64,000 nucleotides of DNA from the NCBI GenBank assembly GCA_024682395.1, contig JAIKZH010000020.1, forward strand, positions 1 through 64,000, written 5' to 3'. Both the position numbers and the translations under genes were made by a program. Source of the DNA: Bacteroidaceae bacterium. GTDB taxonomy: Bacteria; Bacteroidota; Bacteroidia; Bacteroidales; Bacteroidaceae. Numbering within the stretch: position 1 is the first letter of the stretch; the number at the start of each line of letters is the position of its first letter. Below, in pieces: positions 49,934 through 50,987 of the stretch. The notes under the pieces were generated by a model, which did not search any database, was not told the DNA's origin, and was given only the letters and a program-made list of their open reading frames with translations.

Positions 49934-49965
49934 TTTTGGTAGTTTTAGAAAAAGCCTTACCTTTG
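49934..49965 (+). promoter_or_regulatory. promoter of the tRNA-Leu/tRNA-Gly array
   Basis: TTTTG at 49934-49938 and TACCTTTG at 49958-49965 are 19 bases apart. No further promoter match is seen before the terminator at 50674, so the array may be one transcript of about 730 nt. Confidence 0.65.
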
Positions 49966-50006
49966 CACTCGCAAATCGGCAGAAGAGCAAAAATGCCAGC
50001 GACATT

Positions 50007-50087
50007 GCCCACGTGGCGGAATGGTAGACGCGCTCGTTTCAGGTGCGAGTGTTGAGAGACGTGCAAGTTCGATTCTTGTCGTGGGCA
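50007..50087 (+). tRNA. tRNA-Leu (CAG anticodon)
   Basis: A type II tRNA: acceptor GCCCACG/CGTGGGC, D-arm with GAATGGTAGACGC, anticodon stem CTCGT/GCGAG around TTCAGGT (anticodon CAG), a long variable arm, and T-loop AGTTCGATTCT. CCA is not encoded. It is the first RNA of the array. Confidence 0.95.
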
Positions 50088-50130
50088 CATCGAAATTTTG
50101 CTATCTGTTCGATACTTTGAGAAATCAAAA

Positions 50131-50146
50131 TGCTCAGTTGGTAGAG
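50131..50146 (+). pseudogene. tRNA-Gly D-arm remnant
   Basis: TGCTCAGTTGGTAGAG matches the D-arm of tRNA-Gly with one change; the acceptor strand before it and the anticodon arm after it are gone. It is the most decayed member of the array. Confidence 0.6.
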
Positions 50147-50156
50147 TAAACATAAT

Positions 50157-50234
50157 GCGGAAATAGCTCAGTTGGTAGAGCACAACCTTGCCCCAAGAAT
50201 AAAAAGGATACCAACCTTGGCAAGGAGACATAAT
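50157..50234 (+). pseudogene. truncated tRNA-Gly unit 1
   Basis: The first 36 nt equal the 5' half of tRNA-Gly(GCC) up to the anticodon GCC. An 18-nt A-rich linker follows, then at 50211-50225 CCAACCTTGGCAAGG, the exact reverse complement of 15 nt of the anticodon arm. T-arm and 3' acceptor strand are absent. The unit is identical over its 78 nt to unit 4 at 50514. Confidence 0.85.
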
Positions 50235-50311
50235 GCAGAAATAGCTCAGTTGGTAGAGCACACCTTGCCCCAAAAGATAATGGTTACCAACCTTGGCAAG
50301 GATGACAAAAT
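50235..50311 (+). pseudogene. truncated tRNA-Gly unit 2
   Basis: Same build as unit 1 but diverged: G4 is A, one A is lost before CCTTGCC, and the linker differs. The inverted arm at 50287-50301 is unchanged. Confidence 0.8.
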
Positions 50312-50391
50312 GCGGAAATAGCTCATTTGGTAGAGCACAACCTTGCCCCAAGAACAAAAAAGGATACCAACCTTGGCAAGGATGACAAAAT
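50312..50391 (+). pseudogene. truncated tRNA-Gly unit 3
   Basis: Same build; the D-loop has CATTTGG in place of CAGTTGG. The inverted arm at 50367-50381 is unchanged. It directly precedes the first intact tRNA-Gly. Confidence 0.8.
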
Positions 50392-50464
50392 GCGGAAATA
50401 GCTCAGTTGGTAGAGCACAACCTTGCCAAGGTTGGGGTCGCGAGTTCGAGTCTCGTTTTCCGCT
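50392..50464 (+). tRNA. tRNA-Gly (GCC anticodon), copy 1
   Basis: A complete tRNA: acceptor GCGGAAA/TTTCCGC, D-arm AGCTCAGTTGGTAGAGC, anticodon stem CAACC/GGTTG around TTGCCAA, T-loop AGTTCGAGTCT. The discriminator is T and CCA is not encoded. Confidence 0.97.
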
Positions 50465-50513
50465 CAACGACGCAAAAATACTGAAACGACTCTGTAAAAA
50501 GAGTAAAGATAAT

Positions 50514-50591
50514 GCGGAAATAGCTCAGTTGGTAGAGCACAACCTTGCCCCAAGAATAAAAAGGATACCAACCTTGGCAAGGAGACATAAT
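50514..50591 (+). pseudogene. truncated tRNA-Gly unit 4
   Basis: Identical to unit 1, with its inverted arm at 50568-50582. It lies between the two intact tRNA-Gly genes after a unique 49-nt spacer. Confidence 0.85.
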
Positions 50592-50664
50592 GCGGAAATA
50601 GCTCAGTTGGTAGAGCACAACCTTGCCAAGGTTGGGGTCGCGAGTTCGAGTCTCGTTTTCCGCT
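50592..50664 (+). tRNA. tRNA-Gly (GCC anticodon), copy 2
   Basis: Identical to copy 1 over all 73 nt. It is the last RNA of the array, 9 bases before the terminator. Confidence 0.97.
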
Positions 50665-50699: not shown

Positions 50700-50987
50700 G
50701 TTTTCTAAGGGAAACTATTACTATTATATAGGCTCAGTAGAGGCTCAGTAGATAATTAGTGGCTCAGTAGATAATTAGTGGGGATAAGCATATATCATAG
50801 CAAGCCTATAAAGGAAGATTTTCTGAAAATATTTGGTGGGGTATTTAAAAAAGTATATATTTGTAATAGTTTTTGCTAAACCATGAGATTAAAGTCAGTA
50901 AGGAAAAGGTTCTGAAATAGTCTTGTTAGAGCATAAATGCTAAATCTTTGATAAATCATTTTTGTTAATATTAAAAGAAAAAACATT
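50700..50987. other. intergenic region after the tRNA array
   Basis: It holds the small tandem repeat at 50731-50779 and AT-rich sequence with a possible weak promoter (TATATTTG near 50857) for the lipoprotein gene at 50988. Confidence 0.5.
50731..50779 (+). repeat. short tandem repeat
   Basis: A 19-bp unit GGCTCAGTAGATAATTAGT occurs twice in tandem (50742-50760, 50761-50779), preceded by its first 11 bases at 50731-50741. Confidence 0.85.

Follow-up and report, generated by a model that had tools for sequence, protein, structure and literature searches.

The locus described here raises the question of why four copies of the first half of tRNA-Gly(GCC), each ending directly after the anticodon, lie among functional tRNA genes, and whether they are debris of repeated duplication or RNAs with a role of their own. 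The window, i.e. the whole 64,000-nt stretch of DNA that was analysed, belongs to a Bacteroidales genome of 2.6 Mb (89 contigs, 93% complete). A promoter-like sequence of the Bacteroidetes type (TAnnTTTG; TTACCTTTGC), found by eye at about positions 49959-49968, lies just 5' of tRNA-Leu(CAG) (50007..50087, plus strand; ARAGORN and Rfam), the first gene of an apparent transcription unit. It is followed on the same strand by a decayed D-arm remnant (AAAATGCTCAGTTGGTAGAGTAAAC, 50127..50151), which derives from an older unit or tRNA-Gly copy (repeat family D2, 80% identity to the D-arm of the other units), by units 1 to 3, by an intact tRNA-Gly(GCC) (50392..50464), by unit 4 and by a second intact tRNA-Gly(GCC) (50592..50664). 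Both intact copies were called by ARAGORN and matched Rfam RF00005 with 70.5 bits. They are the tRNA-Gly(GCC) genes found in this genome, and each has a unit directly 5' of it. The first-pass annotation, which had proposed such an array together with an older remnant, was confirmed by these results. Three short direct repeats (GGCTCAGTAGATAATTAGT) are present just 3' of the last tRNA-Gly, at 50727-50775.

The four window units consist of GCGGAAATAGCTCAGTTGGTAGAGCACAACCTTGCC (tRNA-Gly nt 1-36, with 0-2 changes per unit), a linker of 19-21 nt and a 3' arm, CAACCTTGGCAAGG, which is the exact reverse complement of tRNA-Gly nt 30-43; the earlier description of a tRNA half running into a linker and an inverted anticodon arm was therefore correct. 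Unit 1 (50157..50225, plus strand) carries the linker CCAAGAATAAAAAGGATAC. Unit 2 (50235..50301, plus strand; linker CCAAAAGATAATGGTTAC) shows G3A and one deletion (A28/A29) in its 5' half, unit 3 (50312..50381, plus strand; linker CCAAGAACAAAAAAGGATAC) has a single D-loop change (G to T), and unit 4 (50514..50582, plus strand) is identical to unit 1 over 78 nt, spacer included (blastn, 100%). The core pattern occurs three times in the window versus zero times in 100 dinucleotide shuffles. Model R1 (69 positions) tells the units apart from tRNA-Gly, with true units scoring above about 57 bits and tRNA-Gly at most 55.3 bits; units 1 to 4 reached 95.1 (E 2.2e-24), 80.8 (E 3.2e-20), 88.8 (E 1.6e-22) and 95.1 bits, respectively. 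Neither an ARAGORN call nor an Rfam match at threshold was obtained for the units, only for the intact copies. Because the anticodon arm of tRNA-Gly is nearly palindromic (CAACCTTG-C-CAAGGTTG), the 3' arm equally reads as nt 27-40 copied in direct orientation, with a single change from C to G. As judged from the sequence, the inverted reading needs zero mismatches and accounts for the extra C in front of the arm.

For the distribution of the units, 84,980 genomes were scanned in one pass with the pattern GAGCACAACCTTGCCN{12,40}GGCAAGG, which returned 64 stretches. Five of these, from other phyla, were discarded as chance matches with no tRNA nearby, while about 59 loci all belong to Bacteroidales or unnamed Bacteroidetes. 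The taxa with units include Bacteroidaceae (Prevotella MAGs among them), Alistipes, Tidjanibacter, Tannerella forsythia, Petrimonas (complete genome), Fermentimonas and Paludibacteraceae. With a looser pattern, true units were found in 20 of 301 genomes of the window's own family (6 genera), and the model added two more genomes, so that about 7% of genomes carry units in the family and 2% in the order, where 7 of 393 evenly drawn genomes were positive (8 with the model). Across the phylum (395 genomes), real units were confined to the window's own genome, and the other Bacteroidota orders of this sample gave chance matches only, without tRNA context. No unit was detected in 2.9 million viral contigs, and phage and plasmid matches covered the tRNA half only. 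As far as sampled, the units are confined to Bacteroidales, in which they are widespread but patchy and absent from most members. Counts based on MAGs are minimum values, as their contigs frequently break off within an array. Five of the 16 other members of the genus (G004, G005, G011, G012 and G013) carry them.

These data bear on several points raised by the first-pass annotation. An assembly error, which would have removed the observation altogether, is excluded by many independent assemblies, including the complete genome of Petrimonas sp. IBARAKI and the isolate Tannerella forsythia OH1426_COT-023. Absence from close relatives together with random decay had been named as the mark of neutral debris; instead, units were found in the genus and in several Bacteroidales families with stems, arm and linker motif conserved. 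The remark that repeated 5' halves do not resemble the scars of integrating elements also held, as viral copies were lacking and no integrase occurred among the ten neighbouring proteins scanned. Of the two readings offered at that stage, simple debris is disfavoured because relatives carry conserved units 5' of tRNA-Gly; a role as RNA is what we tentatively infer.

The position of the units proved to be fixed. Among 90 distinct units, 58 have an intact tRNA-Gly(GCC) of the same strand as their immediate downstream neighbour (53 recognized by script and 5 by eye where the T-loop differs), 20 lead into another unit, 11 reach the contig end and one a run of N. All 78 units with readable downstream sequence are thus followed by another unit or by intact tRNA-Gly(GCC), mostly with spacers of 9-50 nt. 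Analogous units for other tRNAs were looked for and rejected: none of the 126 other, non-Gly(GCC) tRNA genes in unit loci has a complement of its own anticodon arm nearby. Members of the genus share the order tRNA-Leu - X - tRNA-Gly; depending on the species, X is either a unit or an intact tRNA-Gly. To judge from these sister species, the unit occupies the slot of a second, upstream tRNA-Gly copy. Loci without units contained one 18-bit trace of a decayed unit in 30 loci. In three loci (L030 after 4846; L047 and L076, minus strand), the unit is followed by another relic with a tRNA-Gly-like start, GCGGA, continuing TTTTCGTGCAAGCGAGTG..., which recurs in several Bacteroidaceae.

An alignment of 62 units showed nt 1-36 and the 3' arm to be nearly unchanged, with variation in linker and spacers. 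The two stems (D-stem; CCTTGCC/GGCAAGG) are unbroken but hardly variable, so that the lone unit yields no covariation. Where the 5' half differs from the local tRNA, the acceptor strand and D-loop are mainly affected, a weak indication since detection favours intact stems. In Alistipes units with diverged flanks (L037, L055, L083), the D-loop reads GGAAAG instead of GTTGG, with D-stem and acceptor strand intact. Stronger evidence comes from the first five positions of the 3' arm, which the search had left free: 249 of the 250 cells (50 loci) are complementary to the host tRNA, and the arm tracks this tRNA, changing from CAACC to TAACC (L038, L223, L224) or CGACC (L049). In L027, L038 and L049, whose units have a 5' half unlike the tRNA, it is the tRNA that the arm follows. 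Arms reading CGACC (L126) and AGACC (L206) were found in two units whose own 5' half reads CGACC and whose contig ends without an intact tRNA; the exceptions were L216, with a single terminal mismatch (AAACC), and the outlying unit L047, whose arm is altered. In a few lineages both partners of an arm-to-tRNA pair have changed (TA replaces CG in three loci and GC replaces AT in one), although copying from the tRNA could yield the same. Of 50 loci, 44 have a base before the 3' arm that pairs with G44 (40 C-G, 4 U-G). The acceptor strand, which has no pairing partner in the lone unit, tracks the host tRNA acceptor as well, with A-T at position 4 in 6 and G-C at position 7 in 5 of 50 loci; some units lack this strand (L062, L088).

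The linkers follow a common theme. All 80 distinct linkers measure 16-24 nt and their overall A content is 49%. AGG is present in 71 of them against a shuffled mean of 19, AAGG in 62 (9.6 shuffled), an NCA[AG] start in 58 (4.7 shuffled) and a final C in 56 (13 shuffled), counts that are phylogenetically non-independent in linkers otherwise diverged between families. The element is constrained, because arm complementarity is kept and co-changes with the host tRNA, and because linker length and AGG are kept. Inversion of the segment between CCTTGCC and GGCAAGG was considered and reads well, but the linker theme has a fixed orientation everywhere. The element is real, conserved and without a name in Rfam, and from its conservation it looks like an undescribed RNA element and not gene debris; a literature search at title and abstract level returned no description of it.

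Folding predictions were performed for the unit alone and together with the tRNA downstream. The lone unit is predicted to form a D-arm and a hairpin at about -17 to -18 kcal/mol (z-scores -1.4 to -2.2). For unit plus tRNA, the lowest-energy structure predicted is a composite cloverleaf, in which GCGGAAA of the unit pairs with UUUCCGC of the tRNA, the unit gives the D-arm, a helix of 14-15 bp joins the 3' arm to the anticodon arm of the tRNA, and the tRNA keeps its T-arm. When a growing transcript was folded, in a thermodynamic and not a kinetic simulation, the arm moved from unit to tRNA once about 39 nt of the tRNA had emerged. The advantage of the composite over separate folds averaged 12.3 kcal/mol in 50 loci and 4.7 kcal/mol with the arm shuffled. 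However, the composite-fold energy failed its control as proof of function: tandem intact tRNA-Gly pairs (n=12), presumably functional, reach 9.0 kcal/mol, their near-palindromic anticodon arms pairing mutually, so that folding energy alone proves nothing. Pairing with the tRNA is favoured instead because bases useful solely for it, namely arm positions 27-28, the base opposite G44 and the acceptor strand, have been retained and vary in step with the host.

Further structures were rejected as general features. No stem followed by a T-run was seen after the window units, and T-rich hairpins in the spacers of Petrimonas (L038) and genome G1040 (L206) do not extend to a general terminator or attenuator. 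In G1040 (L206:1481-1705), two pairings are open to the linker TTCCGTTTTAACGGA, one internal and one with AACGGGA in the downstream hairpin AACGGGA-TGGCG-TTCCCGTTTT, an attenuator-like arrangement found in this one genus only. A pseudoknot between linker loop and downstream sequence reached p < 0.05 in 6 of 81 units; it is striking in five Alistipes-type units and at most clade-specific. In these, a stretch 11-23 nt past the unit is the complement of the linker loop, and the two sides have changed in a matching way (CACATCC/GGATGTG, CACACCC/GGGTGTG, GCACGTCC/GGACGTGC), which looks like a clade-specific pseudoknot (L037:1933-2039; L055:6458-6567; L086, minus strand, 134-268; L083, minus strand, 2523-2668; L052:4340-4447).

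The DNA itself shows how the units are built, that they keep a fixed place 5' of tRNA-Gly, that they occur across the order and that the 3' arm changes together with the host tRNA. Taking all readings that assign one together, some biological function of the units is fairly probable. The single best explanation, which we hold tentatively, is that they are a conserved Bacteroidales RNA element co-transcribed with, and acting in cis on, the tRNA-Gly(GCC) directly downstream. An effect on folding of tRNA-Gly or on its processing by RNase P would be the simplest role, because it explains the strict adjacency too. The transcribed unit would fold on itself first, with a D-arm and a 7-bp stem (CCUUGCC/GGCAAGG) often lengthened by AAGG/CCUU. 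Once the anticodon arm of the downstream tRNA emerges, CAACCUU of the 3' arm could serve as a 7-nt toehold, and the arm would swap into a helix of 14-15 bp with tRNA nt 30-44, while the acceptor strand GCGGAAA of the unit would take the 3' strand of the tRNA. In the resulting composite cloverleaf, the tRNA's true 5' half would be masked and RNase P would be presented with the 5' end of the unit in its place, so that the unit may delay, reduce or condition the maturation of tRNA-Gly. The composite folding only modestly above the tandem tRNA-Gly control, the patchy distribution, the loss of the acceptor strand in L062 and L088 and the absence of covariation in the lone unit speak against this cis-acting role. 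The stronger claim, a new class of cis RNA switch across Bacteroidales in which a half-tRNA hairpin exchanges strands with the nascent tRNA and a composite cloverleaf from two gene copies gates RNase P maturation of tRNA-Gly, is rather improbable as it stands.

The main alternative, also quite conceivable, is that the units are old tRNA-Gly duplicates without function, formed by fold-back (template-switch) at the near-palindromic anticodon arm, with similarity upheld by gene conversion in the 5' half and by templated inverted-repeat correction in the 3' arm, and with copies made and removed by tandem duplication and deletion. The unit sits in the slot of a tRNA-Gly copy, tandem arrays with identical and decayed copies occur, most 5' halves equal the host tRNA and the distribution is patchy, all of which fits such an origin. 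Correction cannot account, however, for a linker length, start, AGG motif and final C common to families whose linkers have otherwise diverged; decayed units are nearly absent from loci without units; and the GGAAAG D-loop kept in Alistipes genomes despite diverged flanks argues against continual conversion.

Action in trans or at the DNA level was weighed against the same observations. An RNA of 60-80 nt, its 3' end freed by RNase P at the next tRNA, might act as a decoy for an enzyme that binds the D-arm/anticodon arm of tRNA-Gly, or by antisense pairing with tRNA-Gly or with fragments of it. The compact hairpin with a D-arm identical to that of the tRNA and the conserved complementarity to tRNA-Gly are in line with this, but such an RNA would have no need to adjoin tRNA-Gly in every genome, and an anticodon paired in the predicted hairpin makes a poor mimic of the anticodon loop; we regard this reading as unlikely. 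Least probable is a very small DNA cassette, mobile or recombinational, that has entered at the anticodon (36/37) and brings a new 5' half to restore the tRNA. Formally, a unit together with the next 5' half can indeed be taken as inserted between nt 36 and 37 with the tRNA restored, and the patchy tandem arrays and the hairpin recall recombination sites. Against a cassette stand the failure to find units away from tRNA-Gly or in any of the viral contigs, the restriction of phage and plasmid matches to the tRNA half, the lack of a recombinase among ten neighbouring proteins (ten loci), and linkers that diverge at a fixed place, unlike mobile copies.

If the units are functional, they would constitute an order-wide RNA element of common gut and oral bacteria, specific for one tRNA and placed inside tRNA operons, which tRNA finders leave unannotated. 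A leader that controls the supply of a tRNA by mimicking the tRNA itself would be a new principle to our knowledge, and one that is easy to test. If they are not functional, they show clearly how a tRNA duplicate can stay in exact register with the gene it came from, and lend themselves to studies of inverted-repeat correction.

Compared with known systems, the units resemble tRNA pseudogenes and partial tRNA genes (RF00005 fragments) in being derived from tRNA-Gly, with the first 36 nt identical and some copies decaying. Unlike these, the units of many families are truncated alike, agree in linker theme and antisense arm and always lie 5' of tRNA-Gly; the truncation is not random, since the same breakpoint after nt 36, the arm and the linker theme recur in at least five named families or genera groups of Bacteroidales. 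Nor are they tRNA genes in the sense of RF00005, for which a complete cloverleaf with T-arm and 3' acceptor strand is needed. An attachment site or mobile cassette does not fit the absence of a linked recombinase among the neighbours of ten loci and of occurrences in phages, plasmids or other sites. YrlA and other tRNA-like small RNAs likewise hold a tRNA-derived module within a non-tRNA RNA, but the match to YrlA was below threshold (28.9 bits, cut-off 69) and lay across an intact tRNA-Gly, not on a unit. T-box leaders share complementarity to the anticodon region of a specific tRNA (GGC opposite GCC). The units differ in that they precede a tRNA gene, tRNA-Gly, and not an amino-acid or synthetase gene, have no terminator/antiterminator pair, and cover the whole arm and not a codon in a loop; no T-box covariance-model match was obtained in the window or six other loci. 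In the split tRNA genes of archaea (e.g. Nanoarchaeum), a separate 5' half ends at the anticodon and is followed by sequence with complementarity. The units, by contrast, come without a separate 3'-half gene: an intact tRNA-Gly lies directly downstream, and the complement is that of the anticodon arm itself.
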